This document shows positions 13,236 to 35,893 of a stretch of DNA of 35,893 nucleotides, piece by piece. Both the position numbers and the translations under genes were made by a program. Under the pieces are notes generated by a model, which saw only the letters and a list, made by a program, of their open reading frames with translations, made no database searches and was not told the DNA's origin. Location of the stretch: contig CALGYB010000076.1 of NCBI GenBank assembly GCA_937935075.1, forward strand, positions 1 to 35,893, given 5' to 3'. Every line of letters starts with the position of its first letter. Within the stretch, counting starts at the first letter, position 1. The DNA is from an uncultured Roseiflexus sp. (GTDB lineage: Bacteria; Chloroflexota; Chloroflexia; Chloroflexales; Roseiflexaceae).

Positions 13236-13265
13236 AGTGTAGCACTATCTTTGTCGGATTGTCAA
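13236..13265 (-). promoter_or_regulatory. Candidate sigma-70-type promoter of rex
   Basis: On the minus strand TTGACA (13265-13260) and TACACT (13241-13236) are 18 bases apart, about 80 bases before the rex start. The -35 hexamer is a perfect consensus and overlaps the stop codon of the preceding gene, so rex is likely transcribed separately from the secretion operon. I could not identify a Rex operator by eye. Confidence 0.45.
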
Positions 13266-15247
13266 GATGTACCTATCGCCTCCCATACCGTCGGCGAAAG
13301 CGGCGCAATAGAACTCACGCGCAGCAATGCGCTCAGCGCTGCCAGATGCGCTGCGTCGTAGACATGGCATTGTCGTTCGAGGCGGACATGCGGCGCAAGA
13401 ATGCGCACCATTCCCGCCGGAGGCGAGTCGCCTGCGCCGTGTGATCGCCCGTATCCGCCACCCGTGATAACGGCAGGGAAGAGTGTGTGTTGTCGCTGTG
13501 AGGCATCCGGCATACGGGTCTGCGCCAGCACAGAGTAGACGGGCGCATCGGGGTGGCGCAGCAGACGGGCAACGAGATCACTGTGCGCCCGGCGGAGCAG
13601 TGCGTCAGGTTCCACAAGAACGATCAACAGTGCACGCATCGCCGCGCTAGCCCGTGGAAAGGAGCGCACAGCCCGTCCAAGCGCCATCAACGACTCTGCT
13701 GCTGCGCCTGGCAACGCAACCAGGTGCGGCGTCTCCTTGCAGAGCGCACTGACCTGCCCCTGGTCGATGATAGTCACCGCCAGCGTATCGGGCGCTTCGG
13801 CATACAACAGGTCGATGAGCGCAGAACTTGCGCTCTCGATGGCTTTGCCGCCGTAGAATCCGACGTGTCGCCAGGTGTGCAGCGGCAGGAACGATACTGC
13901 TGAGGCGCCACGGTGGAAGGCGGGCAGACGTGAATCCCACTGACGCCGCGCCACCGGCAGGAGCAGGTGACTGCTGTGCATCGCGGGAACAGGACTATGC
14001 AGCGTGGCCGCCAGCGTCGGATGGGTGGGTGTGGTGCGTTGCCACTGCGCTTTTGAACCGGTCAGACGGGTTTCGATCTGTTCCGGCAGTGTTGCCAGCG
14101 TCTCGAACTCATCAGGGTGGGCAGCAACAGTCAAACGCACCTGCGCTCGCTGGCGTTCAATGCCGGCTTCAGCAAATGTGACCATGCTTCGTGCCAGCCT
14201 CTGCTGTTCATAAACGTCCAGAATGGCTGCAACCGCTGCTGCGGCGCTGTCGGTCATGCGGGATTGATAGTCTTTGATTGTGTTGGGGTCGGGTTGTGTA
14301 ATGGATTGCTCTGACGCCACAAGATGATCGACTGTTGCCAGAACATCAGGTTGCCCTTCTTCTCCACCTGTCGATGGGGCATCATTCGGAGGTGCGTCGT
14401 GGTTGCCGCATTCCGGCGCTTTTTCCGCCTCATCTCTCTGGTTCTCTGGGATGGGATTTCCCAGAAACAAAGCCGGTCTGCCGAACCGCAAAAGCACATC
14501 TTTCCAGCGTTGCATTCTCCGCCCTATACCTTGAAGCGTTGCCATACGTCGGAGGGCGCCGGTCCAGACCTGCGCATGCCTTCGTGCCACTGTGCTCCAT
14601 TGTTGGAGGGGCACGCTCCATTTCTGCGCAGGTACAGGATGCTGGCCTTCAGGTTGCCCACAGGGAGGCGCAGCGCTCACAAGGGTCGATTTTTCCCGGT
14701 AAGCCGTCTCGTTGAATTGCCCGTTTGAGGCATCAGGGCGCTCCAACTCCCCCTTCTCCCTGCGAGGGAGCGGGGGGCGGGGAGGATGAAGGAAACCAGG
14801 GCGTTCCAATGCGCACACCACCCACGCCCATCCAACAAACCTGTCCCTGAAAGGGGACGCCTCGACGCCAGTGACATCCGTGGCTGGATGCCCACAGCGA
14901 AGCGCCCCCACGTTGTGTCGCCGGCGCCGCACTGCAACAATCGCCAGCATCAGGAACGCAACGCTGCTCAGGGAGAACGTGGCAATCAGTCCATTCGTCT
15001 CCACCCAGACAATCCATTGCCCACCAACATCCACAATGATAGATACCGCATTGTCTGGAAGTACGTCACCGGACTGCCGTCCGGGAGTGACGGTTGGCGC
15101 TGCTCTTGTCTCGCGCGGCGCTTCCTGGACCATTCCCGCCTGCGACTGTCGGGGAATGGGGGGAGCGTATGCTGTCGCCAGCGCGACCGCAGCAGCAATC
15201 AGCACAATCAGGCTGACCAGCAACGCTTCAATTCGTGGTACGCTCAT
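13262..15247 (-). CDS. Membrane-anchored degenerate FtsK/VirD4-like protein
   Basis: A 661-residue protein. Two hydrophobic segments (about 8-27 and 86-106) anchor the N-terminus, a charged and Pro-rich middle follows, and the C-terminal 200 residues follow the line of an FtsK/HerA-type translocase. HVGFYGGKAIES (461-472) sits where the P-loop should be, then LAVTIIDQG (about 490-497), KETPHLVALP (504-513), a Walker-B-like LLIVLVEPDALL (540-551) and VLAQTRMPD (about 573-581), which resembles FtsK's ATQRP. The GxxxxGK(S/T) loop is not intact and the Walker B acid is altered, so it may be a pseudo-ATPase. In type IV secretion operons this position suits the VirD4-like coupling protein. The ATG at 15247 follows AAGGAAGGA and overlaps the previous gene by 20 bases. 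The FtsK link is my inference from motif order. Confidence 0.6.
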   Translation of the reverse strand: MSVPRIEALLVSLIVLIAAAVALATAYAPPIPRQSQAGMVQEAPRETRAAPTVTPGRQSGDVLPDNAVSIIVDVGGQWIVWVETNGLIATFSLSSVAFLMLAIVAVRRRRHNVGALRCGHPATDVTGVEASPFRDRFVGWAWVVCALERPGFLHPPRPPLPRREKGELERPDASNGQFNETAYREKSTLVSAAPPCGQPEGQHPVPAQKWSVPLQQWSTVARRHAQVWTGALRRMATLQGIGRRMQRWKDVLLRFGRPALFLGNPIPENQRDEAEKAPECGNHDAPPNDAPSTGGEEGQPDVLATVDHLVASEQSITQPDPNTIKDYQSRMTDSAAAAVAAILDVYEQQRLARSMVTFAEAGIERQRAQVRLTVAAHPDEFETLATLPEQIETRLTGSKAQWQRTTPTHPTLAATLHSPVPAMHSSHLLLPVARRQWDSRLPAFHRGASAVSFLPLHTWRHVGFYGGKAIESASSALIDLLYAEAPDTLAVTIIDQGQVSALCKETPHLVALPGAAAESLMALGRAVRSFPRASAAMRALLIVLVEPDALLRRAHSDLVARLLRHPDAPVYSVLAQTRMPDASQRQHTLFPAVITGGGYGRSHGAGDSPPAGMVRILAPHVRLERQCHVYDAAHLAALSALLRVSSIAPLSPTVWEAIGTS

Positions 15248-16541
15248 CCATCCTTCCTTCCACAAAAGTAATCAACCAGGCCTCGTCGCCACTACGCAGG
15301 AGCAATTCATCGTCGTACCACTCGCCGGTCAGGTCGGCACGCCCCGGCACATCCGCAAGCGTGGCTTCACCGATGAACCGATCGCCGTCCAGCCGACCGA
15401 TGACAACCTGACCATCCTGAAGCATGACAATGCGAAGCGTCCCATCCGTCAGCCACGTCATCGCCCGCGCATCGAGCGGTATCCGGCGTTCAGGAAGCAG
15501 CGTATCGAGGCTGGCGCGCCATACCTGCGATCGTCCCGCATCGTCCGGCGCAATCCATACGACCTCATCGCTGCTCCAGGCGTATGGCGGCAATCCATCC
15601 ACGGCAGGCTCGGCAACGACTGCTGCAACCGGCGTCGGGCGCAGGCGCGCCAGAGTCAGCGCGCGTCGTTCTCCATCACGACTGGCGATCAGCGCTGCAT
15701 CACCCGACGGGCGCCAGGCGACGCCCGTAATCTTGCCAGGCAGCGCGACAACTGCGACTGGCGGCGCATCCGGCGTGAGATACTGGATGTGTTCACCCGC
15801 GACAGTGCGTTCCGCCAGCAGCAGCGCCCGACCATTCGGTGCGAACCGCACGAGCGACACATCCCCGACAACGGTGGCGGTCATATATTCCCAGCCGCGC
15901 ACCACAATCCGGCTCTCCGAACGGCTGCCCGGTTGAGCCGGTTCATATACCGCTTCGTAGCGTACTCCATCGACCGTCAGCACATCGGCTCGCCCGCGAT
16001 AGGCATCGATCGTGGTCAACCGCTCGACTCCCGACGCGCCGAAGGCGATGGTTTGCGTTGCCGGAGCGTTCTCATCGAGATCTTTCGCTTCGGCATCTGA
16101 AGGAAGCGGAACGACGCTCTGCACGCGCCACGAGTCGCCGGCGCGCCAGATTGATGCAATGCGCATTCCCGGAGCGGCGGATGGCATCTGACGCACACGT
16201 GGCGGCGGGAGACCGGGCGGGAGACTGAGCGAGACCGTTTCCCCCGCTTGCAGTGTCAGATGAACCCAGGAACGCCGTCCATCCGGCAGAGTCGCCGCGA
16301 CAATGTGCGCGCCTGCATAGATCTCGCCATACCAGGGGCGTCCATCGACGGTGATATGCGCCGCCTCCGCAGCCTGTACCCGCAGTTCGGCGCGCCCGCG
16401 CCAGAAGGGAGGGATGGCGCCGCTCGCAATACCGGTCAGTATCCCGACAGCCAGCACGGTGAGCGCAATCTTCCAGTGCCAGCGATAGACAGCACGCGCC
16501 AGCAGCGCGTCCAGATTGATACGATACCCTGCAACAATCAT
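15228..16541 (-). CDS. Membrane-anchored PEGA-like/beta-propeller protein
   Basis: A 437-residue protein of unknown specific function. The N-terminus is short and cytoplasmic-looking, followed by one hydrophobic segment (about 24-45, IALTVLAVGILTGIASG). Next comes a PEGA-like beta segment (ITVDGRPWYGEIYAGAHIV, about residue 64), then repeated blade-like elements such as LVRFAPNGRALLLAE, GVAWRPSGDAALIAS and PYAWSSDEVVWIA, typical of TolB/WD40-like propellers. It would sit outside the cytoplasm and may bind protein or glycan. The ATG at 16541 overlaps the VirB4 stop as ATGA, indicating translational coupling. It therefore belongs to the secretion operon although it has no counterpart in standard T4SS gene lists. 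Confidence 0.65.
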   Translation of the reverse strand: MIVAGYRINLDALLARAVYRWHWKIALTVLAVGILTGIASGAIPPFWRGRAELRVQAAEAAHITVDGRPWYGEIYAGAHIVAATLPDGRRSWVHLTLQAGETVSLSLPPGLPPPRVRQMPSAAPGMRIASIWRAGDSWRVQSVVPLPSDAEAKDLDENAPATQTIAFGASGVERLTTIDAYRGRADVLTVDGVRYEAVYEPAQPGSRSESRIVVRGWEYMTATVVGDVSLVRFAPNGRALLLAERTVAGEHIQYLTPDAPPVAVVALPGKITGVAWRPSGDAALIASRDGERRALTLARLRPTPVAAVVAEPAVDGLPPYAWSSDEVVWIAPDDAGRSQVWRASLDTLLPERRIPLDARAMTWLTDGTLRIVMLQDGQVVIGRLDGDRFIGEATLADVPGRADLTGEWYDDELLLRSGDEAWLITFVEGRMDERTTN

Positions 16542-18391
16542 CGGTCGCTCCCTGCGCCGGTCACAATCCGATGGATTGTGTCGGGCCATTGTGGAATGAA
16601 CAACGGCGTGCGTTCGCCATCTGCCAGCAGCAATGCGGTTGCGCCGATGCCACGCTCGATCCGGCACGTCGCCAGGTATGCCGCTTCCTGATCATTCAGC
16701 CGCAGAATGGCAGCCGCCCGGTTGACCGCATCTGAGTCCTGGTTCAGCCCCAGAATCAGTTTGGTGCGCGCATTTTCCAGCAATACGCGCGTTTGTTCAC
16801 TCTCGTCCAGATCGTCGAGACTCTGAGTGATGACAGTGGCCTTAAACTGAAGACTCCGCCCGATACGGAAGATCATCTGCAATGTGCGCGCGCCCACTTC
16901 CGAGTGAAGCAGCGCATGCGCCTCATCGAGCACCAGATGGCTGCGTCGTCCGGTCGGACGATTGATCGCCGTGGTGACGAAGAAATCCATCACGATCACC
17001 GGCAGCAGACGCGCAAGCATGTCGTCGTTGCTCTGGAGCAATGTCCAGAGATCGATCGCCAGCAACGGGTTGTCGGTCGGCACGTTCGACGGATGGTTGA
17101 AAAGGTCGCCGATGATGCCGCGCGTAAACAACGTCATGGCGCGCGCCAGGTCGGGGGCGATCTCCGCAAGATGCTGCTGCACGTCACTGAACGTAGGCAT
17201 CGGTTGGATAAATGTGTGCGGATCGCTGCTGATGCCGCGTGCGGCGTAGGCTGCGGCAATGGCATCCTGAATCGCAGCGGCGCCGGTTGCATCGACGTGG
17301 GTGCCCTGCGCCTTCAACTCACGGGAGATCAATGCCTTGACAATGCTGATCCGCTGCGCGAGCAGGTCTTCTTCGAGCGCCGCAACGGCGCGTGCGCGTT
17401 CGGGCGCAAGCGGCGGCAATTCCAGCGGATTAATGTGATACCCGGCGCGACTCGAAAGCGAAATGTAGGCGCCGCCAAGCGCCGTCGTCAACGCGCGGTA
17501 CTCCTGTCGCTTCGGATCGAGAATGAGCAGCGCGTCCTCGCCAAGCGCCAGTTCCTGCGCCAGCAACCCGCCCATGGTGTACGTTTTGCCACTCCCCGAC
17601 TCAGCAACAATGAGCATATGCGGGTTGGTCGCCTGCCAGCGGTCATAGACGACGGGCGCGCCGCTGCGCGGGTGTTCGCCCCAGACAATTGGCAACCCGC
17701 CGCGCCGTGTCAGCCCTGGCGAAGCCGTGGGCATGCCCATCGCAGCGGCGCGCCCGCTGGCATCGTGCATCAATCCGGCAGGGGTTCGTCCCAGCGGCAG
17801 CGAGTCGAGATACCCTTCCCACTGCTGAAACTGCATCGTACCGAGTAGAATGCCTTGCTGCGCCGCCGCCTGCCGTATCCGGTCAACACGCGCTGCCAGT
17901 TCTTCAGGAGTTGCCGCAGCAACCGTGATAGTGATCGCCACCTGGAACAGACGATCCGTGCCTGCCGTCAGGTCGTGGCGCAGCGCCGCCGCCGCCTCCA
18001 CTCCCTGTTGCGCCTCTGCATCGAAGTGCGTGCCTGCCTGCGCGTCACCGGCCAGCGTGCCAAGCGCCGCATCTTCGCTGCGCGCCAGCCAGCGACGGGC
18101 AAGTGCGTCGGGAATGGGAACCAGGCGCTGATGAACGGTGATGCCCACCCCATCCAACCCCAACCCTGCATGGTCGAGCCACGCCAGCGCAAGCACCGGC
18201 GGAAATGCGCGCACCTCCAGCGTCGTGATGAACGAATCGCCCACCTGAACCATATGACTCCAGCGCCGGTCGATCCCATCAGGCGCCAGCAGGGTTGTCA
18301 GCGTTGTGGCGCCCGACAAGAATGCGGCATCGGTTGTGCGGCGGCGCACCGGCTCGATGATCGGGCGGGAGAGCGCGTCCCGAAGTGACAT
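16538..18391 (-). CDS. virB4: VirB4-family conjugation/type IV secretion ATPase
   Basis: A 617-residue cytoplasmic ATPase that energises assembly or substrate transfer of type IV secretion systems. Walker A is VAESGSGKTYTMGG (about 262-275). LLILDPKRQEYRAL follows (the D-P-K-R/Q-E-Y segment characteristic of VirB4/TraE-type ATPases), then Walker B RSHLVLDEAHALL (about 483-495), VITQSLDDLDES (sensor Gln) and the C-terminal LLENARTKLILGLN block. All match the VirB4/TraC group and not VirD4. The N-terminal domain is shorter than in VirB4 proteins of 800 residues; part of it may be the separate upstream gene. The ATG at 18391 follows AGAGAGGG. The gene is coupled by ATGA to the propeller-protein gene downstream. 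Confidence 0.92.
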   Translation of the reverse strand: MSLRDALSRPIIEPVRRRTTDAAFLSGATTLTTLLAPDGIDRRWSHMVQVGDSFITTLEVRAFPPVLALAWLDHAGLGLDGVGITVHQRLVPIPDALARRWLARSEDAALGTLAGDAQAGTHFDAEAQQGVEAAAALRHDLTAGTDRLFQVAITITVAAATPEELAARVDRIRQAAAQQGILLGTMQFQQWEGYLDSLPLGRTPAGLMHDASGRAAAMGMPTASPGLTRRGGLPIVWGEHPRSGAPVVYDRWQATNPHMLIVAESGSGKTYTMGGLLAQELALGEDALLILDPKRQEYRALTTALGGAYISLSSRAGYHINPLELPPLAPERARAVAALEEDLLAQRISIVKALISRELKAQGTHVDATGAAAIQDAIAAAYAARGISSDPHTFIQPMPTFSDVQQHLAEIAPDLARAMTLFTRGIIGDLFNHPSNVPTDNPLLAIDLWTLLQSNDDMLARLLPVIVMDFFVTTAINRPTGRRSHLVLDEAHALLHSEVGARTLQMIFRIGRSLQFKATVITQSLDDLDESEQTRVLLENARTKLILGLNQDSDAVNRAAAILRLNDQEAAYLATCRIERGIGATALLLADGERTPLFIPQWPDTIHRIVTGAGSDR

Positions 18392-18403: not shown

Positions 18404-19075
18404 TCATTGACTCGTATGAACCACCAGGCGAATTCGTTCGAGCAACGCGCCCTGCAACGGGTAGCGCGATGCGCGCACCGGATCGATCAGGCGAAACCAG
18501 AACCGGGCAATCTCTTCGGCTTCGAGCAGACGCGGCGGTGGTGAACCGCCCAGCGATGCCAGCGCCTCCGCCAGACGGCGCGCTCGTGCCACCGCCTCTG
18601 CTAACAACGATGTGTCGCGCGGTGTCGGAACGGCGCCATTCGAGATTCGGAGCGATCCCGACAGCCAGTTTCTGGCGCTGACCGGCAGCGCCGACGGTTC
18701 GCTGCCGGCGACTGCCCAAATGGTCTGCCGGCTGCGGCTGACGGCGGCGCCAGAACATGCCTCCAGATACTCCGCTGTCTCGTCGAGAATGGCCGCCAGT
18801 GTGGGGTGATCCGCCTGATCGCTGCGAGAGCGAAGTTCGGCCATCTCCCACTCCAGGTCCGGCGGTCCATCGACGACGTACACATCCACGGGGGCTTCCT
18901 GCGCCAGTAAGATGCGGTGGTAGGTCTCTGCGAGGCGTGCCCGGCTTTCGTAGGATCGCAGATCCCACGCAGGCGCACCGCCGCCGACCAGTCCTACGGC
19001 GCGTCCATCAGATCGCAGGATTGCGCCGCGCACGATGCGCTGTGGAATGGCGACACACAGTTCGTTGTCACTCAC
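18404..19075 (-). CDS. VirB4-associated protein of unknown family
   Basis: A 223-residue soluble protein without signal or membrane segment, between the PrgI-like gene and virB4. I do not recognise a named family. It contains a strand-rich N-terminus (AIPQRIVRGAILRSDGRAVGLVGG) and an alpha-helical C-terminal half (residues about 80-215). In many Gram-positive T4SS the VirB4 N-terminal domain begins with such a strand-rich piece, so this could be a detached N-terminal domain of VirB4. The start is the GTG at 19075, with GGAGGG 6 bases upstream; it overlaps the PrgI-like gene by 8 bases. The stop is 12 bases before virB4. The position and co-directional spacing make a role with VirB4 likely. 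Confidence 0.55.
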   Translation of the reverse strand: MSDNELCVAIPQRIVRGAILRSDGRAVGLVGGGAPAWDLRSYESRARLAETYHRILLAQEAPVDVYVVDGPPDLEWEMAELRSRSDQADHPTLAAILDETAEYLEACSGAAVSRSRQTIWAVAGSEPSALPVSARNWLSGSLRISNGAVPTPRDTSLLAEAVARARRLAEALASLGGSPPPRLLEAEEIARFWFRLIDPVRASRYPLQGALLERIRLVVHTSQ

Positions 19076-19457
19076 CGGAACCCTCCCTGCGTTGCCAGCG
19101 CGGTCGTTGCAGCGACGGCGCCAGCATCAACGACTCCTCCTGCGGAAGAATCGCCTGAAGTTGGGTGGCGCGCAGCCGCTTCGTCCGGCTCAGGTGCCGC
19201 CAGACGATGCCTGCCGCGTCGCGCGATGAGCGTCCCCACATACGCCCTTCGAGCAGCGCCAGACCGACGGAGATCAACCCGCCGCTCACCCAGATGGTGC
19301 GTTCGATAGTGGCGCCGAGTGAGATGGCAATCCCTCCGACTGCCAGCATCCCGACGATCATCAGGAACGAACGCGCCGGCAGGCGCATCCCAGCGATCTG
19401 CACCGATGCACGCACCCGCAATCGGCGCGGCACGACCGCGCTCAGATAATCGTTCAC
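19068..19457 (-). CDS. PrgI-like membrane protein
   Basis: A 129-residue protein with a short cytoplasmic N-terminus (YLSAVVPRRLRVRASVQIAG), a hydrophobic segment at about 28-48, a second at about 54-70, and a basic C-terminal tail. Size, two adjacent spans and a position just before the VirB4 genes match the PrgI/VirB3-like family that docks VirB4 to the membrane in Gram-positive conjugation systems. I rely on topology and context; the sequence itself is not diagnostic. The start is a GTG at 19457 with GGAGGAG 5-8 bases upstream; an ATG at 19461 belongs to another frame that gives only Arg-rich residues. It overlaps the next gene by 8 bases. Confidence 0.65.
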   Translation of the reverse strand: MNDYLSAVVPRRLRVRASVQIAGMRLPARSFLMIVGMLAVGGIAISLGATIERTIWVSGGLISVGLALLEGRMWGRSSRDAAGIVWRHLSRTKRLRATQLQAILPQEESLMLAPSLQRPRWQRREGSGE

Positions 19458-19476: not shown

Positions 19477-19776
19477 TTATCCGGTCAACCCCATCGCCCA
19501 CGCGACAATGCTCGACGACTGATTGGCGACAACCAGCAAAATGACGAACACTGCCAGATCGATGCCTGCGCTGCGCAGGTCGCGTGGTGATGAGAAGATG
19601 TGCTTTGCCATATCGATGAGCAGGAAGAAGCCCCCGGCGACGGTGATGATGTTCTTCAGCCAGTCGAACAGCGCCTTGAACAATCCGTCGAACTTCGGCG
19701 GATCGGCGAAGAGACCGAGCAGGTCGGCGGGGATGGACGAAACCGCAAGGCCGATGATCGAAATGATGGATTCCAT
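19477..19776 (-). CDS. Small VirB2-like membrane protein
   Basis: A 99-residue protein with two hydrophobic segments (about 40-60 and 70-95) separated by a short polar loop (SSPRDLRSAG). It has an N-terminal amphipathic stretch and no classic signal peptide. Two-span small proteins in this operon position are usually VirB2/TrbC-type pilin or channel-lining subunits. The sequence is not diagnostic, so this is inference. AAAGGAGACGG gives a strong ribosome site for the ATG at 19776. It lies 64 bases after the hydrolase gene and 19 before the PrgI-like gene. Confidence 0.5.
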   Translation of the reverse strand: MESIISIIGLAVSSIPADLLGLFADPPKFDGLFKALFDWLKNIITVAGGFFLLIDMAKHIFSSPRDLRSAGIDLAVFVILLVVANQSSSIVAWAMGLTG

Positions 19777-25572: not shown

Positions 25573-26271
25573 TCATCGGATCACCTCAGTTGTCGCTGCA
25601 TCGACGATCCGCCAGCCGCCAGCGTCCTGGCGCAACCAGTAGCGGTTGCGAGTCAGTACGCCGCGTCTGCTGTCGATAATGCGTCCACCGACAGTGATGA
25701 CGACATCCCACTGCTCCTGGGTATCGATCCATCCCCCGGCGGAGGTCACGTCGCTCTGCAAAACGCCCCAGCGCACCAGGGTGGCATTGCGGCGCTCACC
25801 GGCGCCGGCGCGACGCGCATACTCCGCTGCCACTGCCTGCCAGGCGGGACCGTCGGGCGCCAGATAGGGTTCGAGCAGCGCCGCCTGTCCATGCGCCGCA
25901 GCCAGTGCGCTCGCCTGGTTGTACGCTGCCAGAAAGCGTACAACGTCATCGTTTGGCGTCATCGCCGGGGTCGGCAGCGAAAATTCATGCCCATCGGCGA
26001 TGCGCGCCAGATTCGGTGTGGCATCGGATGCGCGCAGAACCGCCCCCATGTGCCAGATCGCAAGCCCTGCTCCAGCGCCGATGGCAGCAATCATGAGCGC
26101 GCGCGGATAGCGCAGGATGATGGTCAGCAGCCGATCAACCGACGGACAGGACAGGAGCCAGCGCACCACCCGATCTCCGATTGTCGGAACGCGAGACGCG
26201 CGACGGCGCTGCGCGATGGTCTGCGGCGGCGCACTCCGGCGACGTGAACGGTTGCGGCGAAAAGGTGTCAT
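25573..26271 (-). CDS. VirB8/TcpC-like membrane protein
   Basis: A 232-residue protein: a basic N-terminal cytoplasmic region (about 1-53, many Arg), one membrane span (about 58-80, ALMIAAIGAGAGLAIW), then an extracytoplasmic domain of about 150 residues. The end of the domain, NRYWLRQDAGGWRIVDA, resembles the NTF2-like fold used by VirB8 and TcpC. Topology and place in the locus support a VirB8-type scaffold protein, but the sequence match is weak. The ATG at 26271 follows GGAGTATGG; the TadC-like gene ends 16 bases upstream, so it is probably co-transcribed with the Tad genes. It is the last gene before the repeat-rich gap. Confidence 0.6.
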   Translation of the reverse strand: MTPFRRNRSRRRSAPPQTIAQRRRASRVPTIGDRVVRWLLSCPSVDRLLTIILRYPRALMIAAIGAGAGLAIWHMGAVLRASDATPNLARIADGHEFSLPTPAMTPNDDVVRFLAAYNQASALAAAHGQAALLEPYLAPDGPAWQAVAAEYARRAGAGERRNATLVRWGVLQSDVTSAGGWIDTQEQWDVVITVGGRIIDSRRGVLTRNRYWLRQDAGGWRIVDAATTEVIR

Positions 26272-26287
26272 CGTGCCATACTCCGGC

Positions 26288-27079: not shown

Positions 27080-27105
27080 GGAACGCCTCGCTTCATCTGG
27101 TGGCA

Positions 27106-28068: not shown

Positions 28069-30120
28069 TCAGCATGCGTCCGGTTTGTTGCCTGCCTCCA
28101 GCGACAGACGCTGTGCGCGTACCGTTGCAAGCGCGGCTTCAGACCCCTGCCCGGTCTGGACCAGATATTCCATTGCGCGTTCGCGCACACGAATCAGTGG
28201 AAGCGCAATCGCTACCGGCAGATTGGATGGGGTAAAGAGGGCAAGCATATCAACGGCGAGTCGGGGCTGCCCCTGCTCGAGCGCCCGTTCCGCTTCGATG
28301 CGCGCTTCTTCGGCAGCGGTCTCGGCAGCGATACCCTGGCGAATGTGAGCCTCGACCATTTCCCAGCCGCCCGGCGGCGCAGCATGCGCTGCAATTGCCA
28401 GGTCGGTCATGATCGCATCGAGCGCCAGGCGCGCGTCGCGCCAGCGGTTTGCTTCAATAAGCCGTTGTAGCGCCGCACCCTCGATGGTTGCCTGCTCGAT
28501 GGCATCGGCAAAGGCGCCTGGCGCCTGACTCAAGATGTCCTGCGCTGCGCCGATCAGTCGTGGGTCGCGGCGTTGCAGCCAGGCGCTGCGCAGCGCCGCC
28601 AGCGCGCGCTCTGGCGCACCTGCCAGCACGTGGGTATGCGCGCGGGCAATCGCATCTGCAACAGCGTCGAGGGTAGTGGCGCTCTGCCGCACCTGCGCCA
28701 GAGCGCGCGCCCGTATCAGTTTTTCGCGCAGCGATGCTGGCGTCTGATCGCTTTCCGCCCATTCCAACAACCCGCTATTGCCGACGACTGCCCGACATTG
28801 CCAGATGATCCGTCCATCCGACCGGATATCGACCTTTGCCAGCGGAACCAGCGCCGGACGGGGCGCGCCTTCTTCCATAACGATGCCGTCCAGCAGCGCA
28901 ATGTCGGTGATCAGGCGAAGACCGAGTTCTTCCCAGTTATCCACCTTGATCACCACATCGAAGCCGTTGGCTGCGTCTCGCAGGGCATCGGTGCGGCGAT
29001 TTTCGTACATATATGCGCCAGGCATGGCGGCAAAACTGGCGAAGCGTTCAATCGCTTCGCTGCATGAACGCGCATGCAGCGTGGTGATGACCGGATGGTC
29101 GGAGAGCACAAGTGCCAGCACCGCCCCTGCTTCGTTGCCGCGTATCTCGCCAGGGCAGAGGAGATCGGGCGTCTGACGCAGCGCTTCTCTGGCGACACGT
29201 CCGAAGGCATCGGGGTCGCGTTGGGTATTGACCTGTTCGCGTGTCCAGAGGTCGGCGCGCCGGATATGGATCTCCTGCATGTGGTCTTCGATGGTCAGGA
29301 TATGGGGATCGCCGGGCCAAGAGTTGGCGAGCGCTTCAAGCAGCGCCGTTTTGCCGCTGCCGGTGCGCCCGGCAATCAGGAACGAACAGCGCGCCCGCGC
29401 CAGCAGCAGCAGCAGGTCGCAGATCTGCCGATCAAATGTGCCATGCTGCATCACGTCGTGTAAATCCCACGCGACACGCCGCCCGCGCCGGATGCAGATC
29501 AGCGCGCCATCTTCGGTCGGGATGCGCGGCGGAATAGTTGCATGAATGCGCGTTCCGTGATCGGCGGGCAATGTTTCCTGCGGGTTCTGCGCGTCGAGGT
29601 GGACACCCATGAGCGACGCCAGTAACATTGCGCGATCGCGCACTTCAGCGGCAGTGACAAATTGCTCCGCAACGGTCACAAAGGGTTTGCCGCTCTCCTG
29701 TACGCGAATGCGCCGCCCGATGATTTTGACCTCGTTGACGCGCGGATCATCGAGGTACCGCTGCGCCGGTCCCCAACCGATGGTAGCGGCAAAGATCTCC
29801 AGCAGCGTTTCATCATCGGTCGGGACACGCGCCAGCGGGCCGCCACGCGCGCGATGCTGCCCGATTGCCTGGCGCAGTACGGCGACGACTTCGGCGTTTC
29901 GCTCGGCGGCAGGCGCGAACGGGTTCAGCAAATGCCGCCGTCCGTCGGCGCTGAACGCCTGCTGGAGTTCATCACGCGCCGCCTGTAGAATGGCTGCCTC
30001 ACGCAGCGCCGCCTCGCGCGCCAGGGTGTCGGTTGGTCCGCCGAGAAGCGTCGCCAATCCGCCGTCTTCCTCGATGGTGAGCAGCGGCGTAGATGGGTTG
30101 ATGATGGATCGAGGGTTCAT
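28069..30120 (-). CDS. tadA: TadA/CpaF-type pilus ATPase with long C-terminal extension
   Basis: A 683-residue secretion ATPase of the CpaF/TadA family that drives pilin assembly through TadB/TadC. DDPRVNEVKIIGRRIRVQ (about 124-141) is the N-terminal domain start, Walker A is AGRTGSGKTALLE (about 250-262), the Asp box is ILTIEDHMQEI, Walker B is PDLLCPGEIRGNEAG (about 318-332), and the His box is VITTLHARSCSEAI. The motif order is complete. From about residue 460 an unusual helical tail of about 220 residues (Ala/Leu/Arg-rich) follows; I do not recognise it. The ATG at 30120 begins MNPRSIINPS; the frame upstream reads through the heptamer repeat and is not protein-like. It is the second CpaF-type ATPase of the locus. 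Confidence 0.93.
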   Translation of the reverse strand: MNPRSIINPSTPLLTIEEDGGLATLLGGPTDTLAREAALREAAILQAARDELQQAFSADGRRHLLNPFAPAAERNAEVVAVLRQAIGQHRARGGPLARVPTDDETLLEIFAATIGWGPAQRYLDDPRVNEVKIIGRRIRVQESGKPFVTVAEQFVTAAEVRDRAMLLASLMGVHLDAQNPQETLPADHGTRIHATIPPRIPTEDGALICIRRGRRVAWDLHDVMQHGTFDRQICDLLLLLARARCSFLIAGRTGSGKTALLEALANSWPGDPHILTIEDHMQEIHIRRADLWTREQVNTQRDPDAFGRVAREALRQTPDLLCPGEIRGNEAGAVLALVLSDHPVITTLHARSCSEAIERFASFAAMPGAYMYENRRTDALRDAANGFDVVIKVDNWEELGLRLITDIALLDGIVMEEGAPRPALVPLAKVDIRSDGRIIWQCRAVVGNSGLLEWAESDQTPASLREKLIRARALAQVRQSATTLDAVADAIARAHTHVLAGAPERALAALRSAWLQRRDPRLIGAAQDILSQAPGAFADAIEQATIEGAALQRLIEANRWRDARLALDAIMTDLAIAAHAAPPGGWEMVEAHIRQGIAAETAAEEARIEAERALEQGQPRLAVDMLALFTPSNLPVAIALPLIRVRERAMEYLVQTGQGSEAALATVRAQRLSLEAGNKPDAC

Positions 30121-30249: not shown

Positions 30250-31512
30250 TCACGCCCCTTGCCTCGCCTCACCTCCCGCTCTCAACATTGGTTTTCCTGG
30301 AAACCAGCGCCGGAACAGGTTGACACTCGGTTTCGGTTGCGGCAGCGGCAGCCCGATAATGCCGCACATTTCCTCAACGATATTGTGAACCGCCAGTGAG
30401 AAAGGGCGAAACCTGCCGGCATCGAGTGGTGAGAGATACCGATCCGTCTCTTCGTTTGCCAGGCTGACCAGATACGGGTCGCGCGGCAATGTGCCGATGA
30501 TGCGGGCTTTGGGCCAGTGTTCAGCAAACAACGGCGCGACCCGGCGCACACCAACGGTCACGCCACGCTCAGGTTCCATCAAAATGAGCATGCAGCGATC
30601 AGTCAGGTCGGGTTGGTGCGTCGCAAACTGTTGCAGCGCAATCCCAACCCCTGCGCGCTCTTTGCGTCCCGGCGGCGCCGGCAGGACGACCCATCCACCA
30701 TTGCGCGCGGCTTCGAGCGCATATGGGCGTTTCTTCATGTCAGGACCGGTATCGATCAGCACAACGTCATAATCGTGATCCAGCACCTCGCCCAGGCTGC
30801 CGACCGCCTGCATCAGTGCGCGCCAATCCGGCAGCGTGAAGTCGGCAGCCAGCGCAGACTCATCGGCGCCAAGGAGGAAGTCAATGCCGCTGGGAGCATG
30901 CCGCCAGATCAGGCGAGCGACGTTGGCGGGTGTGAAGCGCGAATGACCGTGTCCTTCCTGCCGCAATGTCAGAAACGAGCCAAACCCCGCCGGAATGCGA
31001 AATTCCGGCACCAGACCTGAGTTCGAGAGATCGCCGTCAACAACGAGCACGCGCAAGCCGCGGCGACGCATCCCTTCTGCAAGCGATGCAACCACCAGAC
31101 TTTTCCCGATGCCGCCTTTCGCTCCGGCGACCGCAATCGTCACCTGGCGCGCGGCAAGTCGTCTGGCAGCGCCCAGTTGCTGCGCGATCCAGGCAGCCAG
31201 CGCTTCGGGTCCACGTGCTGTGGTTACCGCCAGCCCGGCGTCGGTAAAGTCGCCGGCATGCACCACGCCAATGCTCTGAAGCCCGATCAACACGCGCACT
31301 CCGCGCGCCTGAGCCGCGCGAATGGTGTCCCACAGGTCGGGAATGGTGCCGCGCGTATCTTCCAGGTACACCGCCGGCGGCGGTTGTTCGCCGACGATCA
31401 GACTGCGTACCCGCGCCAGGTTCGGCGCCGCGAAGGGAAGAATGCCATTGTAGCCGCCAAGCGCCTCGACAAGCCCTGGTGTGTTGGTGACCAGTAAGAG
31501 TTCGGTTGCCAT
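30250..31512 (-). CDS. tadZ: TadZ/CpaE-like ParA-family ATPase
   Basis: A 420-residue protein with an N-terminal atypical receiver-like domain (about 1-115) followed by a MinD/ParA ATPase. The deviant Walker A is VAGAKGGIGKSLVVASL (about 128-144), then LRVLVVDGDLSNSGL, Walker B-like YDVVLIDTGPDM, and LPRDPYLVSLANEE near the C-terminus. CpaE/TadZ proteins place Tad machines at specific sites such as the cell pole. I chose the ATG at 31512 because AAGGAG lies 6 bases upstream; the frame is open to 31671 without protein-like sequence. The gene lies between the two CpaF-type ATPase genes, 31 bases after the first. Confidence 0.9.
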   Translation of the reverse strand: MATELLLVTNTPGLVEALGGYNGILPFAAPNLARVRSLIVGEQPPPAVYLEDTRGTIPDLWDTIRAAQARGVRVLIGLQSIGVVHAGDFTDAGLAVTTARGPEALAAWIAQQLGAARRLAARQVTIAVAGAKGGIGKSLVVASLAEGMRRRGLRVLVVDGDLSNSGLVPEFRIPAGFGSFLTLRQEGHGHSRFTPANVARLIWRHAPSGIDFLLGADESALAADFTLPDWRALMQAVGSLGEVLDHDYDVVLIDTGPDMKKRPYALEAARNGGWVVLPAPPGRKERAGVGIALQQFATHQPDLTDRCMLILMEPERGVTVGVRRVAPLFAEHWPKARIIGTLPRDPYLVSLANEETDRYLSPLDAGRFRPFSLAVHNIVEEMCGIIGLPLPQPKPSVNLFRRWFPGKPMLRAGGEARQGA

Positions 31513-31543
31513 GGAAAGCTCCTTGTGTTCGAAAATCCCAGCC

Positions 31544-32800
31544 TTATAGCCGACCCTTGCCCCATGCGCTCTGGACAGGGTATTTCCGTTCGAGCCGGTT
31601 TGTTGCAGGATTGAAAGCAAACAGGATGTTGTGCGGCAGGATGTCGCCTGCCTGACTACCACTTGTGACAATGACCTCGATCACCTGCCCGACACGCCGA
31701 CGTCCGCCGTAATGCCCGATATGCAGCGCAATCAACGGCACAGCGCCGCTCGTCATCAGACCACGCACAATCCCCGGCGACGCCAGACCTTCGAGTGTGG
31801 CGAAGCGCTCCAGGTTGCGCAGCGCGGTGAGCGCGTCGGGAGCGTGGATCGTACAGATGCCGGGATGACCGGTTGCAGCGGCTTCGAGCATCGCCAGGGC
31901 TTCAGAACCGCGCACTTCGCCAAGGACGATCAGATCAGGACGCTGGCGGAGCGCCAATCGGACACAACCGGCAAAACTGCTGCGGCTGCGCAACACTTCC
32001 ACGGCCACTCCGTCAGGCGGCAGCGGCAGTTCGCGCGCGTCTTCGATGAGGATTACGCGCTTCTCGGCGGCAATTGCCTGGAGCAACGCTGCTGTGAGAG
32101 TGGTCTTGCCGCTGCCCGCGCCGCCGGCAATCAGAAGCGTAACGCCGCGCCGAATGGCTTCGAGCAGCAGTTCGGCGGCTTCGCGTGGCAGGACGCCCGC
32201 CTCTTGCTGTGCCAGATCGTCGATTGTTCGCCAGCGCGCGGGAAGCGCGCGCACAGCGACCGTCGCGCCATCCGGCGTATACGGCGGACGGGTGACAGCG
32301 AACCGCAGCCGCCGGTCGGCTGTGCCGTAGAGCGCGTGAACGACCCGCCCATCATCACTGCGCCAGTCGTCGGGATGATCGGGAGTGACGAAACCGGCTC
32401 GCAGGAGCAACTGGCGCTGCGTCCAGCGCAACCACTCGTCGCCAATGCGGATGCCGGTATCGGTGCGGTTCCCATCCTCAACAACGACCAGTGTGCGATC
32501 CGGTCCATCGATAAACATGTCGGACACGCGCGATCCAGGGTGCAGCCAGAAATCGAGCGGACCGTACCAGGCGATCTCTGCCCATTCCGCAACGGTGTAT
32601 CCGTCGCCAAGACCGGCGTGACGCATGGTTTCGGCAACGGGTCGCTGCCAGTCGCTCAACCGCCCGGTCTCCTGGCAGAACCGCAGTTCAGCCAACCGCT
32701 CGTTGGGGGAAAGCGGAGCGTCAGAGACGGTGCGTTGATGTGTATCGAGAGACTGTGTTTCAATTTCCTGACCGTTTTTTGCGACAAAAAACCCGCTCAT
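31544..32800 (-). CDS. Second CpaF-type secretion ATPase
   Basis: A 418-residue ATPase of the CpaF/VirB11 superfamily, shorter than and different from the tadA product. Walker A is AGGAGSGKTTLT (about 225-236), VILIEDARELPLP is the Asp box, RQRPDLIVLGEVRGSEAL (about 286-303) is Walker B, and GICTIHAPDALTALRNL is the His box. The layout with a 200-residue N-terminal domain fits CpaF or VirB11. The ATG at 32800 follows AGGAGGCATCCT, a strong ribosome site. Because this locus also has VirB4 and VirB6-like genes, this copy could be the VirB11 counterpart, or could serve as an alternate pilus motor. The sequence alone does not decide. Confidence 0.9.
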   Translation of the reverse strand: MSGFFVAKNGQEIETQSLDTHQRTVSDAPLSPNERLAELRFCQETGRLSDWQRPVAETMRHAGLGDGYTVAEWAEIAWYGPLDFWLHPGSRVSDMFIDGPDRTLVVVEDGNRTDTGIRIGDEWLRWTQRQLLLRAGFVTPDHPDDWRSDDGRVVHALYGTADRRLRFAVTRPPYTPDGATVAVRALPARWRTIDDLAQQEAGVLPREAAELLLEAIRRGVTLLIAGGAGSGKTTLTAALLQAIAAEKRVILIEDARELPLPPDGVAVEVLRSRSSFAGCVRLALRQRPDLIVLGEVRGSEALAMLEAAATGHPGICTIHAPDALTALRNLERFATLEGLASPGIVRGLMTSGAVPLIALHIGHYGGRRRVGQVIEVIVTSGSQAGDILPHNILFAFNPATNRLERKYPVQSAWGKGRL

Positions 32801-32858: not shown

Positions 32859-33755
32859 TTATTCGTCAGGGGAAGATGTGGTTGGAGCGCCGGGAATCGG
32901 CGCAGTCGCGCCAGGGATCGGCGCGCGCGCGTCAGAGACAATCTGCGGCTCGAGGCGAAGCGTCTCGGTAACAGGGCGCGTCAGGTCGGGCAAAATGACC
33001 TGGGCGGCATCAAGGCGGTCCATGTACTGCAAGGGATCGCTGGTGGCGCCATAACGCTCCGCCCACAGCGCCACATTTGCCGCCTGGAGCGCCCGCAGCG
33101 CATGCGCCTGCGCGGGGGTCATTTCCAGATATGCAACGTCGTCTTCGATGTACAGAATTGGAATGCCGGACATCCAGCGGCAGGCATATGCCCGCGCACC
33201 TTCTTGAACCACTATAAGGGTCGTTGGAACATTCAGAACAGTTCCAAGCGATACGTCAGCCCGTGTTCGGTCGCAGAGCAATGGGTCGCTGGCGATGAAC
33301 CCAATGTTCAACCGGTCGCGGTCGGTGACCGGTCCTACGCCGGTCAGTGCGAATGGGGCCGGAACCATGTTCCGCTCCAGTTTGCGCCCGTTGGGATACA
33401 CCGGCTCATCTGGCAGATTCGGCGACAGCATGCTGGCTTGCAGCAGGTCATTTACCCCAATCTGTCGGGTTGCATATTGCCCGATGACGGCGCCTGGATC
33501 GGTTATTCCCGTCACCTGCACCGGACGATGCAACGGCAATTCGATCACAGCGAGATCATCGGCGGTGATCTGTTGTCCGTAGTGGACATCACGCGCAGCA
33601 ATGACCACACGTTCGGTGCGGCGGCTCTCGATATAGCCGTAGGCGGCGGCGGCGAGCGATGCTGCAATGCCGATAACGAGCAACAGCGCCGGTACAACCT
33701 GCGACTTTTTGGGGGTGAGCGCACTGCTCAGCGGTGTCGAGAGACTTGAGGACAT
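32859..33755 (-). CDS. cpaB: CpaB/RcpC-like SAF-domain pilus assembly protein
   Basis: A 298-residue protein with an N-terminal membrane span (about 19-42, VVPALLLVIGIAASLAAAAYGYI) and a SAF domain right after it: VVIAARDVHYGQQITADDLAVIELP (about 50-74). Such proteins assist the outer part of Tad/Flp pilus assembly. A second beta-rich region follows and the C-terminus is Pro/Ala-rich. The ATG at 33755 follows GGAGAACTACT. It is preceded by the TadE-like gene with a gap of 34 bases and followed by the CpaF-type gene at 58 bases, so it is part of the same transcription unit. Confidence 0.87.
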   Translation of the reverse strand: MSSSLSTPLSSALTPKKSQVVPALLLVIGIAASLAAAAYGYIESRRTERVVIAARDVHYGQQITADDLAVIELPLHRPVQVTGITDPGAVIGQYATRQIGVNDLLQASMLSPNLPDEPVYPNGRKLERNMVPAPFALTGVGPVTDRDRLNIGFIASDPLLCDRTRADVSLGTVLNVPTTLIVVQEGARAYACRWMSGIPILYIEDDVAYLEMTPAQAHALRALQAANVALWAERYGATSDPLQYMDRLDAAQVILPDLTRPVTETLRLEPQIVSDARAPIPGATAPIPGAPTTSSPDE

Positions 33756-33789
33756 AGTAGTTCTCCGTTGTCGTGATTATTGAGAAATC

Positions 33790-34308
33790 CTATCGTTCCA
33801 GGACATCGAGTGCTGCGGCTGCCGTGATCAGCGGACGGTACGGTCCATACCCCAGCAGACCGAACCCGGTCAGCGTCGGACGCACCTCGGCGCAGACCGC
33901 CGGCCGATCAAAGGTCATCGTCTCCTGATTATCGAACCGACACGTCCCGCCCTCCGGCAGGATCGTCCAGGTCACCTGCCGCGCTACGTCTGCGGGCGTT
34001 CCGCTCAAGCCCTGCACCGTGCCGAGGTTGCGCTCGAAGGTCAGCCGCGCCTCCCGCTTGGCGCGCTCCTCGTTAATGCGCCGACGATTGTTCGCCAGAG
34101 CGTCATAGGCGAACGTTTGCACCGCCGAGCGCGTCGCCTGCTGCAGCGCATCCTCCATCTGCGCCACCTCCAGCTGGCGTTCGCTGAACTCGATGATTGC
34201 GAAGACGAACGGCGTCAGAAACGCCAGCGTCAGCGCAACGAACGCGAGCGATTGCCCGGATTCGGCGCGCATCGGACCGGCGCCCCCACGGTTGGCGAGT
34301 CGCTTCAT
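33790..34308 (-). CDS. TadE/TadG-like pseudopilin
   Basis: A 172-residue protein with the TadE-type N-terminus: a short basic leader, then RAESGQSLAFVALTLAFLTPFVFAII, a hydrophobic helix of about 20 residues following a Gly-Gln-Ser, then a helical segment (QMEDALQQATRSAVQTFAYDA) and a small extracytoplasmic domain with a possible Cys pair. TadE-family pseudopilins are thought to contribute to the pilus base or its processing. The ATG at 34308 follows CAGGAGATGCGCC. It lies 16 bases after the other TadE-like gene. The family call rests on the N-terminal pattern. Confidence 0.75.
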   Translation of the reverse strand: MKRLANRGGAGPMRAESGQSLAFVALTLAFLTPFVFAIIEFSERQLEVAQMEDALQQATRSAVQTFAYDALANNRRRINEERAKREARLTFERNLGTVQGLSGTPADVARQVTWTILPEGGTCRFDNQETMTFDRPAVCAEVRPTLTGFGLLGYGPYRPLITAAAALDVLER

Positions 34309-34324
34309 GGCGCATCTCCTGCAA

Positions 34325-34801
34325 TTACGGTTGAACATCCTGCTCCAGCGTGCGGGTGGCGCTCCGTTCGACGCGAATGTCGGTCAATATTCCGGGGATC
34401 GGCGTCCAGACGTCCGCCCGATACCGGATGGTCACCGTGACCGGGTCATACCGCCGACACGACGATGCGCAGCGCACCTGAATGACGGCGTGCTGCGGGT
34501 CGGCGAACACGCTCCCTTCGAACGCGGCGCGCGCCGCCTCCGCCGCCGGCCCCGGCGCGTCCTTCAGATTATAGTCGCGCCCGTCCATCCCGACGGTCGC
34601 GCCGCGCAGCGCCGCCTGGTGCACCGCGATCCGCACCGCCTGGCTGACCGTATAATGCGCGCCGATCGCCTGAATCGCCGCCACCCCGCCGAAAATAATG
34701 GTCAGCAAAATGGAGAGCGTGATCGCCGTTTCGACCAAGGACTGCCCATGACGGGAACGGCGAATGGATCGGCGAACGATGACGGATAGGCGTTCGATCA
34801 T
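34325..34801 (-). CDS. TadE-like pseudopilin
   Basis: A 158-residue protein with N-terminal RRSRHGQSLVETAITLSILLTIIFGG: basic leader, GQS-LVE, then a hydrophobic helix. The Glu after the conserved Leu-Val is the mark of TadE-like (PF07811-type) pseudopilins. The remaining part is extracytoplasmic with a possible disulfide (CASSC). The start is the ATG at 34801 (MIERL): AAAGGAGG lies 6 bases upstream, while the ATG at 34807 would sit directly against the ribosome site. It is followed after 16 bases by a second TadE-like gene; together they may form a heteromeric minor-pilin pair. Confidence 0.83.
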   Translation of the reverse strand: MIERLSVIVRRSIRRSRHGQSLVETAITLSILLTIIFGGVAAIQAIGAHYTVSQAVRIAVHQAALRGATVGMDGRDYNLKDAPGPAAEAARAAFEGSVFADPQHAVIQVRCASSCRRYDPVTVTIRYRADVWTPIPGILTDIRVERSATRTLEQDVQP

Positions 34802-34838
34802 GTCCATCCTCCTTTGGGTGTGCGTCCTGTCCTTTGCC

Positions 34839-34864
34839 GAGGGCGCCCCGCAAGGAGCGCCCTC
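34839..34864. repeat. Hairpin between surface-protein gene and TadE-like gene
   Basis: GAGGGCGC (34839-34846) and GCGCCCTC (34857-34864) form a perfect 8-bp GC-rich stem with a 10-base loop, in the 86-base gap between the surface-protein gene and the TadE-like gene. There is no T-tract, so it may be an mRNA-stability or partial-attenuation element or a dispersed REP-type repeat. Confidence 0.65.
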
Positions 34865-34887
34865 CTGATGACCCCTCGCGGCGTCGG

Positions 34888-35893
34888 TCACCGTGCATCC
34901 CGCGGCGCGATCAGCGTCACCTGCGCATCGCCGTCCAGAATGAACGTTCGCCGCTCCAGCACGCTGTCGGTCCGCCCGTCCCCGTCCAAATCCTCTCCGG
35001 CTTCCGTCAACTCGACCAGCGCCGCATACCGAATGCGAATGCTCGGATTGGGCGGCGGCGGCGAGACAAGATACGTCGCCTCCCCGACATTCGGCGCAAA
35101 CGCCGACCAGTGCAGCCGCCCCTGGCGGCGCATGTCGTCGGGCGACGGCTGCGCGTCAAGGTAGCGATAGCGACACCCCGGCATCCCGCTCAGGTCGGCA
35201 TGCTCCGTGTCCGTCGCCGGAGGCTCCTCGCGGGCGCGGCAGGGCGCGCCGGACTGCGTCAGGTTCCATGGACCGGAGCGGAAGCTCCAGGCGACGATCC
35301 GTTGATCCACCCGATAGTACGGCAGACCGGGCTGTCGCTCCGTCAGGGCGACGCGCGGCGTAAAGTAGAGCGTCTCGCCGAGCGGCCACGCGAACGCGGC
35401 GCCCTCCGTCAGATACACCCCCCGGTTCGGGTCAAACTCGGAATGGATGCGCAAGCGCACGTCGCCTTGCGGCCGCGGCGTGATCAGCACCACCGTGCGC
35501 GCCGTCGCCTCGTTGTCGCTCGGGTCCCGGTCGCCGCCGGGCACGGGGATGATCTCCAGTCTCGTGATCAAAAGCGCCGGCAGCGCCGCCGCCTCGTCTT
35601 CGCGCAGCGTCCGCACCCGCACGACCTCCTGGTGCATCGTTCCGCCGTCTACTTGCAACCCTTGCCCCCCTCTATAATTCCAGGAGACGCTCGCCCCGTC
35701 CACATGCCCGCCGCCGGCGTCGACCGGCGTGACGCCGTAAGGCAGCGTCAGGGTCATCCGCCGAACGAACGCCGGCGCGTTCGGCGTCGTATTGCGCGCC
35801 CGCACGCGCAGCTCGAACTCCTGTCCGGGGCGCGTCAGCTTCGGCGCGACGATCTCCGCCCGCACATTCCCGCGAATGATGCGTATCGTATGG
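34888..35893 (-). CDS. Partial exported-type beta-rich protein, 5' end beyond window
   Basis: An open frame that continues through the right window edge; only its C-terminal part of about 335 residues is visible. Sequence such as GQEFELRVRARNTTPNAPAFVRRMTLTLPYG resembles CARDB/DUF11-type extracellular beta-sandwich repeats. Near the end EDLDGDGRTD looks like a calcium-binding loop. It is rich in charged residues and has no membrane segment in the visible part. It lies upstream of the TadE genes with an 86-base gap holding a hairpin, and may be an exported protein of the pilus locus. The first in-frame GTG (35865) is not taken as the true start because the frame runs on to the edge. Confidence 0.6.
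   Translation of the reverse strand, partial: HTIRIIRGNVRAEIVAPKLTRPGQEFELRVRARNTTPNAPAFVRRMTLTLPYGVTPVDAGGGHVDGASVSWNYRGGQGLQVDGGTMHQEVVRVRTLREDEAAALPALLITRLEIIPVPGGDRDPSDNEATARTVVLITPRPQGDVRLRIHSEFDPNRGVYLTEGAAFAWPLGETLYFTPRVALTERQPGLPYYRVDQRIVAWSFRSGPWNLTQSGAPCRAREEPPATDTEHADLSGMPGCRYRYLDAQPSPDDMRRQGRLHWSAFAPNVGEATYLVSPPPPNPSIRIRYAALVELTEAGEDLDGDGRTDSVLERRTFILDGDAQVTLIAPRDAR

Follow-up and report, generated by a model that had tools for sequence, protein, structure and literature searches.

A co-directional array of Tad pilus genes and Gram-positive-like type IV secretion genes in Roseiflexus

Tad and type IV secretion genes form one array

Roseiflexus is a hot-spring bacterium. We analyzed a window of 35,893 nucleotides that is one whole contig (CALGYB010000076.1, assembly GCA_937935075.1) of an uncultured Roseiflexus sp. 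and that carries, on the minus strand from 35865 to 13262, one co-directional array in which Tad pilus genes are joined to a gene set resembling a type IV secretion system (T4SS) of the Gram-positive kind (below, G, C, and L numbers are handles for genomes, contigs, and loci, respectively). On the Tad side, the genes encode, in order, a DUF11-repeat protein, two TadE-like proteins, CpaB, a TadA-type ATPase, a TadZ-type ATPase, a second and longer TadA-type ATPase, a TadB-like protein, and a TadC-like protein; on the T4SS side, these are followed by genes for a VirB8-like protein, a VirB6-like protein, an M23/M15 hydrolase, a VirB2-like peptide, a PrgI-like pair, VirB4, a propeller protein, and an FtsK-like protein. 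The open reading frames, order, strand, and couplings agree with a preliminary description of this DNA made from the sequence alone, including the 4-base ATGA overlaps at 22687-22690 and 16538-16541, the TGATG at 27104-27108, and the 16 bases (26272-26287) between the TadC-like and VirB8-like genes, which are the junction of the two halves. Couplings within the array are tight except for one 555-base interval (25018-25572) between the VirB8-like and VirB6-like genes. No promoter- or terminator-like sites were found from 24900 to 27300, a negative that carries little weight, and scans of the window for Rfam families and tRNAs gave no matches.

The long interval had been considered a possible boundary between the halves and, with it, a regulatory junction. 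This proposal was rejected, because the interval lies inside the T4SS side and contains a dispersed repeat (25024..25405) that is a lineage-specific insertion. The repeat has 51 matches in the genome (50 at other places), with up to 90% identity and typically over 200-300 bases, and in other Roseiflexus genomes it is matched weakly and over short stretches only; in G002, G004, and G005, the VirB8-like and VirB6-like genes abut without it. The N-terminal ~45 residues of the VirB6-like protein are not homologous to the versions in relatives, apparently because the repeat insertion displaced the gene start here.

The Tad half

Both TadA-type ATPases, TadZ, CpaB, and TadE were firmly assigned by family searches (E values in parentheses). 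The first TadA/CpaF-type ATPase (31544..32800) matches T2SSE (2.6e-31) and the TadA family TIGR03819 (1.8e-35) and has the Walker A motif GGAGSGKT; the second (28069..30120) matches the same models (9.6e-27 and 4e-36, respectively), has the motif GRTGSGKT, and bears a C-terminal extension of ~280 residues. The TadZ/CpaE-like ParA-type ATPase (30250..31521) matches CbiA/AAA_31 (5e-9 and 7e-9) and TIGR03815 (1.3e-6), CpaB/RcpC with its SAF domain (32859..33755) matches PF08666 (7e-12) and TIGR03177 (5e-9), and the TadE-like pseudopilin (34325..34891) matches PF07811 (2.7e-5). A second TadE/TadG-like protein (33790..34338) has no match in Pfam; its conserved position, N-terminal membrane helix, and weak cross-similarity to the TadE profile suggest this assignment.

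The membrane proteins encoded after the second TadA are not recognized by the Pfam T2SSF model (PF00482), because they are strongly divergent. In hhalign comparisons with canonical TadB and TadC, the TadB-like protein (27106..28056) reached probabilities of 60-86%, the best with TadB, against 0.1-0.2% for controls, and the TadC-like protein (26288..27106) reached 83-88%, against 0.2-1% for controls. Thus, of the calls first regarded as firm (TadA, TadB, TadC, and VirB4), TadA and VirB4 stand by family search, while TadB and TadC, unmatched in Pfam, are assigned by profile-profile comparison only. With this qualification, the array encodes TadA, TadB, and TadC as well as TadZ, CpaB, and TadE. 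At its upstream end, 34888..35865 encodes the C-terminal part of a protein that is long, secreted, and made of DUF11 repeats, and that is truncated by the contig end; the ortholog in the complete relative G003 starts further upstream, comprises ~1000 amino acids, and matches the DUF11 repeat model (1.3e-9).

The T4SS half

In the T4SS half, the identities of VirB4 and the M23 hydrolase are firm. VirB4 (16538..18391) matches NF045971 (2e-59) and the solved VirB4 structure 4ag5 (5.5e-21 over 379 residues). Its score is below the curated NCBI cut-off of the CD1110 equivalog (NF045971), and it is therefore a relative of the CD1110 group and not a member of that exact group. In the peptidoglycan hydrolase (19841..22690), the M23 domain is split by an insert of ~600 residues with an M15-type domain: profile positions 2-57 match at 4.9e-10 and positions 57-92 match near the C terminus at 0.005, and M15_4 matches at 0.022, with SxHxxGxAxD and ExWH-like motifs. 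The two hydrolase parts are separate genes in the relatives G057 and G010 (L041:9810-11606 and 12018-12833; L036:3419-5640). For the polytopic VirB6/TrbL-like membrane protein (22687..25017), the match to PF04610 (0.0037) is weak when taken alone; the call is backed by gene position and by proper TrbL matches in relatives, and the family profile of this protein matches the VirB6 genes of other Chloroflexota T4SSs. The membrane-anchored propeller protein (15228..16541) has a profile matching PEGA-domain proteins and is homologous to PEGA proteins encoded beside VirB6 in other Chloroflexota T4SS loci.

The VirB2, VirB8, PrgI, and FtsK calls had been described as weaker, and for VirB2, VirB8, and PrgI our data agree. 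The VirB8-like candidate (25573..26271) has a membrane helix and an NTF2-like domain. Structure prediction had been proposed as a check; a 6-row AlphaFold model had a predicted local distance difference test score (pLDDT) of 55 and matched NTF2-like folds including TraM of pIP501 and TcpC, with ARC6 first. This low-confidence model is consistent with VirB8 and TcpC and also with unrelated families, and is too poor to decide between them. The VirB2-like candidate (19477..19776), a membrane peptide of ~99 amino acids, is conserved in G003, G004, G005, G009, and G007 and has no family match. The PrgI-like (VirB3-like) pair consists of an N-terminal part (19068..19457), in register with an Embleya PrgI domain at 6% probability, and a C-terminal part encoded by a separate gene (18404..19075), for which hhalign gave 94% to PrgI-family proteins. 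Neither matches Pfam PrgI; together, the two genes may correspond to one PrgI-family protein, the second gene being the better supported.

The fast-evolving FtsK-like protein (13262..15265) has no match in Pfam; its assignment is supported by similarity to FtsK (2ius, 7e-4) and by its fold. The AlphaFold model of its C-terminal 331 amino acids (pLDDT, 81; predicted template modeling score, 0.85) has an FtsK/TcpA fold, with the FtsK motor (3e-10) and the pCW3 coupling protein TcpA (3e-9) as top matches. A Walker A motif (P-loop) is missing from this protein and its aligned orthologs, and the protein is therefore probably not an active motor.

The array is conserved and under purifying selection

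All six Roseiflexus genomes and a genome of a further genus (G009) have an intact array as far as their contigs reach, and the gene order is identical in four genera of the family on all contigs of sufficient length. The 16-base junction is matched by a close junction throughout Roseiflexus. Diverged copies with the same order, and 36-60% identity for most genes, are present in G007 and G013, and the copy in G010 is spread over two contigs, of which C304 carries the genes for CpaB, TadZ, the second TadA, TadB, TadC, the VirB6-like protein, and the hydrolase; the first TadA-type gene is missing from the copies in G007 and G010. At the Tad/T4SS junction of G007 and G013, two small genes replace the VirB8-like gene (L038:334-1422; L039:7036-7621); by eye, they look like helix-turn-helix genes (MerR/excisionase-like).

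A rex gene borders the array on its downstream side in five genomes of two genera (G000, G001, G004, G005, and G009), and the locus therefore looks vertically inherited. Purifying selection acts on each of the 14 array genes tested, which come from both sides of the junction, with ratios of nonsynonymous to synonymous substitution rates (dN/dS) of 0.07-0.44; values were lowest for the motors (0.07-0.13; VirB4, 0.07-0.08) and highest for the FtsK-like protein (0.37-0.44).

Coupling protein, pilin, peptidase, and relaxase

The possibility that the coupling protein was lost in Roseiflexus was rejected, since an ATPase resembling a type IV coupling protein (T4CP), with intact Walker A and B motifs, is encoded away from the array, at a conserved locus of its own, in G009 and all six Roseiflexus genomes. 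In G003, this gene is at 5.012 Mb and the array at 2.724 Mb. Database matches of the ATPase are weak (TraG-D_C, 0.017; DotL, 0.007), and the tentative T4CP call draws in addition on position in relatives: the protein is 43-44% identical to the T4CP of G007, which is encoded directly after the FtsK-like gene, adjoining the array. In Roseiflexus, the T4CP-like gene is preceded by a gene for a short protein that, on reading the sequences, resembles the C-terminal tail of the FtsK-like protein of G007, and it therefore appears that a block of FtsK-like and T4CP genes was split. Of the parts that characterize a Gram-positive T4SS of the MPF-FATA type, the VirB4 ATPase, the VirB6/TrbL-type protein, and this putative coupling protein of the VirD4 type were found, and the PrgI/VirB3 and VirB8-type proteins are represented by the tentative candidates described above.

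Neither a Flp pilin nor an A24 prepilin peptidase is encoded in the array; a single clear Flp pilin and a single clear prepilin peptidase are encoded at other places in the genome and may be supplied in trans. Among the relaxase families tested, PF03432 was found in 0 of 6 genomes (other MOB families were not searched), and Replic_Relax (PF13814) is absent from G000, G009, and G007. By these two families, the relaxase or equivalent expected of a conjugative element was not detected. The preliminary statement that no conjugative element is evident, as the window lacks a relaxase, Flp pilin, and prepilin peptidase, holds for the relaxases tested; for the pilin and peptidase, as for the T4CP, the window was too narrow a view, since these are encoded elsewhere.

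The two halves co-occur even when unlinked

In a second family of this order, four genomes from three genera (G057, G052, G438, and G396) have a window-type Tad operon and a Roseiflexus-type T4SS on different contigs, and in G057 and G438, where both flanks are readable, the Tad operon stands alone and ends after TadC. Separate, distant loci had been named as an observation that would speak against a joint machine; the halves are indeed apart in these genera, but in each genome tested they are present together. Window-type TadB was found in 5/5 other genomes with Roseiflexus-type VirB4, also where the halves are unlinked. It is absent from four same-family genomes without Roseiflexus-type VirB4, and also from G014, an incomplete genome (71%) in which VirB4 is represented by no more than a fragment. 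Because the halves co-occur even when unlinked, these patterns speak for joint function rather than mere neighborhood. An earlier idea that the T4SS of G057 and its relatives is a Tad-less mobile form was dropped when window-type Tad genes were found on other contigs, and the gene after the T4CP in G057, which by eye looked like Replic_Relax, was not supported as such.

Tad-T4SS pairing recurs in other Chloroflexota

Using a VirB4 profile, we searched 400 Chloroflexota genomes, obtained matches in 66, and examined the flanking sequence of about twenty loci. In G071, G132, G204, G139, G118, G452, G382, and others, the VirB6-PrgI-VirB4-T4CP genes have a canonical Tad operon upstream, oriented in the same direction. 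The gene-neighborhood comparison that had been proposed as a check thus gave both a conserved order in four genera of the family and a pairing that recurs across the phylum. Among 12 testable loci, defined by enough sequence and a genome having Tad genes, Tad was upstream, co-directional, and within 40 kb of the T4SS in 9, compared to 0.17 expected for random placement; the nominal P value of 2e-15 indicates non-random linkage and not nine independent events, as the loci are related. In G382, three of the four Tad clusters are paired one-to-one with its three T4SSs. A Replic_Relax gene lies just after the T4CP gene in most of these loci, and the G452 contig carries RepO-like, ParA, and ParB genes and is therefore plasmid-like. 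A membrane protein of ~1200 residues is encoded between the Tad and T4SS genes in G452 (C88, L127:9057-12707) and G204 (C521, 21979-25455); in G452, it has LysM and transcriptional-activator (BTAD) domains.

The Roseiflexus array shares with these loci that Tad genes are upstream of, and co-directional with, VirB6-PrgI-VirB4 genes. In a TadA tree, T4SS-linked copies cluster apart from a clade of 16 stand-alone chromosomal TadA proteins, with two copies without a nearby T4SS falling among the linked ones. Descent of the Roseiflexus Tad genes from other T4SS-linked Tad genes was rejected for the window TadA in the approximately unbiased (AU) test, with the caveat of long branches (P = 4e-5). Because the window TadA is outside the T4SS-linked group, the Roseiflexus pairing looks like a separate joining of Tad and T4SS, distinct from the pairing on the elements.

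Interpretation

The locus has a conserved gene content and order and is under purifying selection, its halves co-occur, and a coupling protein exists. We favor, with moderate confidence, the reading that the array is a chromosomally fixed, Tad-pilus-assisted T4SS derived from conjugation-type machinery and without a detectable relaxase. The initial suggestion of a pilus-assisted secretion or DNA-transfer machine is thus retained as the best reading, based on the conserved array and the recurrent pairing across the phylum. We infer that the two halves work together, and the data suggest that pilus and transporter cooperate, most likely in reaching another cell and moving DNA or protein into it. 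In such a machine, the Tad half would build a pilus that is extended and retracted to locate a partner cell or a surface and keep hold of it; its Flp pilin and prepilin peptidase probably come from elsewhere in the genome. The cell wall would be opened by the peptidoglycan hydrolase. A substrate delivered by the coupling protein, whose gene is now at a distant locus, would then be driven by this protein and VirB4 through a channel of VirB6-like, VirB8-like, and PrgI-like proteins; DNA appears somewhat more likely than protein as this substrate. As neither a relaxase nor Replic_Relax was detected, the array is probably no longer a self-transmissible element.

Several points weigh against this reading. 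The halves are on different contigs in three genera, so their adjacency is not essential; contig C55 of the genome holds a canonical Tad operon as well, and the one clear Flp pilin gene lies outside the array. The window TadA falls outside the T4SS-linked TadA clade (AU test, P = 4e-5, long branches), and the VirB2, VirB8, and PrgI assignments are weak. In addition, the linkage statistics count related loci as independent, and the VirB4-less comparison covers genomes of the same family only.

An alternative is that two independent machines became neighbors, one a specialized Tad pilus used in adhesion or gliding and the other a T4SS that has been domesticated; they would have been joined once in the family ancestor and kept together by inertia. 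The separate Tad operon and T4SS contigs of G057, G052, and G438 support this explanation, as do the two small helix-turn-helix genes in place of the VirB8-like gene in G007 and G013 and the proposal that Chloroflexales pili function in motility (PMC7332563). However, the halves co-occur even when unlinked, a like pairing recurs in other Chloroflexota and on an actinobacterial plasmid, and the close junction is kept across Roseiflexus, and we regard independence as rather unlikely.

A bolder version of the favored pilus-assisted T4SS, tentative and in our view unlikely, is that Tad pili were recruited at least twice in Chloroflexota as the mating pilus of a Gram-positive-type T4SS and that the Roseiflexus version, relaxase-less and vertically inherited, moves DNA or protein between the cells of a filament or between neighbors. 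If true, this would give the archaeal pairs of pilus and importer a parallel in bacteria and would explain in general how a T4SS that lacks a VirB2-type pilus establishes contact.

That the array is a still transmissible integrative conjugative element, with a relaxase of an undetected type and its coupling protein in trans, seems improbable to us. The T4CP-like, VirB4, and PrgI-like parts are typical of conjugation systems, and in related loci a Replic_Relax gene comes directly after the T4CP gene, with plasmid partition genes present at one of them; nevertheless, the tested relaxases are absent (PF03432 from 6 genomes and Replic_Relax from G000, G009, and G007), rex borders the array in G000, G001, G004, G005, and the other-genus G009, and the T4CP is at a separate conserved locus. 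Finally, a machine for DNA uptake or exchange, in which Tad would bind DNA or sister filaments and VirB4/VirB6 would import or exchange chromosomal DNA as in the archaeal Ups pili and Ced importer, is very improbable: VirB4 is weakly similar to the CedB importer model (1e-6) and flp pili of Micrococcus luteus are treated among DNA-uptake structures in a review (PMC6370729), but VirB4 models match far better, some similarity to CedB is to be expected of every related ATPase, and the T4CP-like protein and wall hydrolase point to export.

Comparison with known systems

The closest functional analogy may be the type IVb pilus and T4SS pairs of IncI plasmids (R64, TP114) and PAPI-1, in which a type IV pilus for partner contact and a conjugation machine are encoded together; for the IncI2 plasmid TP114 (PMC9045228) and PAPI-1 (PMC5297154), experiments demonstrated that the pilus serves conjugative transfer, and we infer that the Roseiflexus array works likewise. 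Those systems have a classical type IVb (Pil) pilus in diderm hosts, with shufflon adhesins in IncI, whereas Roseiflexus has a Tad pilus, a T4SS of the Gram-positive kind, and a chromosomal location, with no relaxase detected.

A linear plasmid of the Gram-positive bacterium Cutibacterium acnes also has a tad locus next to T4SS-like genes (VirB4, FtsK-type, and TcpC-like), and its authors leave the functional link open (PMC5696575). The comparison made here is one of gene content, and this system is plasmid-borne; the C. acnes plasmid in our plasmid collection has no tad annotation, and the tad-bearing one is cited from that report. On the linear plasmid unnamed2 of Embleya sp. NBC_00896, T4SS and Tad genes are likewise on one strand, in the order PrgI, VirB4, T4CP, Replic_Relax, NlpC/P60, and then SAF, TadA, TadB, TadC, and TadE. 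Unlike in Roseiflexus, the T4SS genes there precede the Tad genes, with about 10 kb from VirB4 to Tad, and the VirB4 proteins are about 26% identical.

With monoderm MPF-FATA T4SSs (e.g., those with CD1110-family VirB4), the array shares VirB4, a VirB6-like protein, a putative PrgI-like protein, a possible VirB8, and a cell wall hydrolase; it differs in that a relaxase was not found, the coupling protein is unlinked, the hydrolase is of the M23/M15 kind, and a Tad operon is attached. The relaxase-less T4SSs of Patescibacteria are also of the Gram-positive type and are thought to be co-opted for other functions, in an account that makes no mention of Tad (PMC12102498). The same account describes Gram-positive-type T4SSs as lacking a pilin and depending on surface adhesins.

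In the literature searched, we found no description of a Chloroflexota Tad-T4SS locus. Given the C. acnes report, the pairing itself is not wholly new; what we did not find described there are the chromosomal form, with both halves fused, and the occurrence of the pairing across Chloroflexota. A recurrent pairing, on a plasmid-like contig and on chromosomes, would give Gram-positive-type T4SSs a contact pilus, would explain in some cases why a genome has several Tad operons, and would provide a new signature for T4SS annotation. The pairing can be tested in Roseiflexus, since long pili anchored close to the septa have been observed on its filaments (PMC7332563).

Flanking genes

Upstream of the array in G003, G001, and G009, the DUF11 protein gene is preceded by a gene for a secreted CAP-domain (SCP-like) protein (L026:9024-9722). 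Downstream, between rex and an amino-acid ABC transporter, the window contains at 9681-12115 a restriction-like cassette comprising a cytosine methyltransferase, a protein without a family match (10096-11082), and a Vsr endonuclease; in G004 and G005, rex and the transporter are close together without this cassette.

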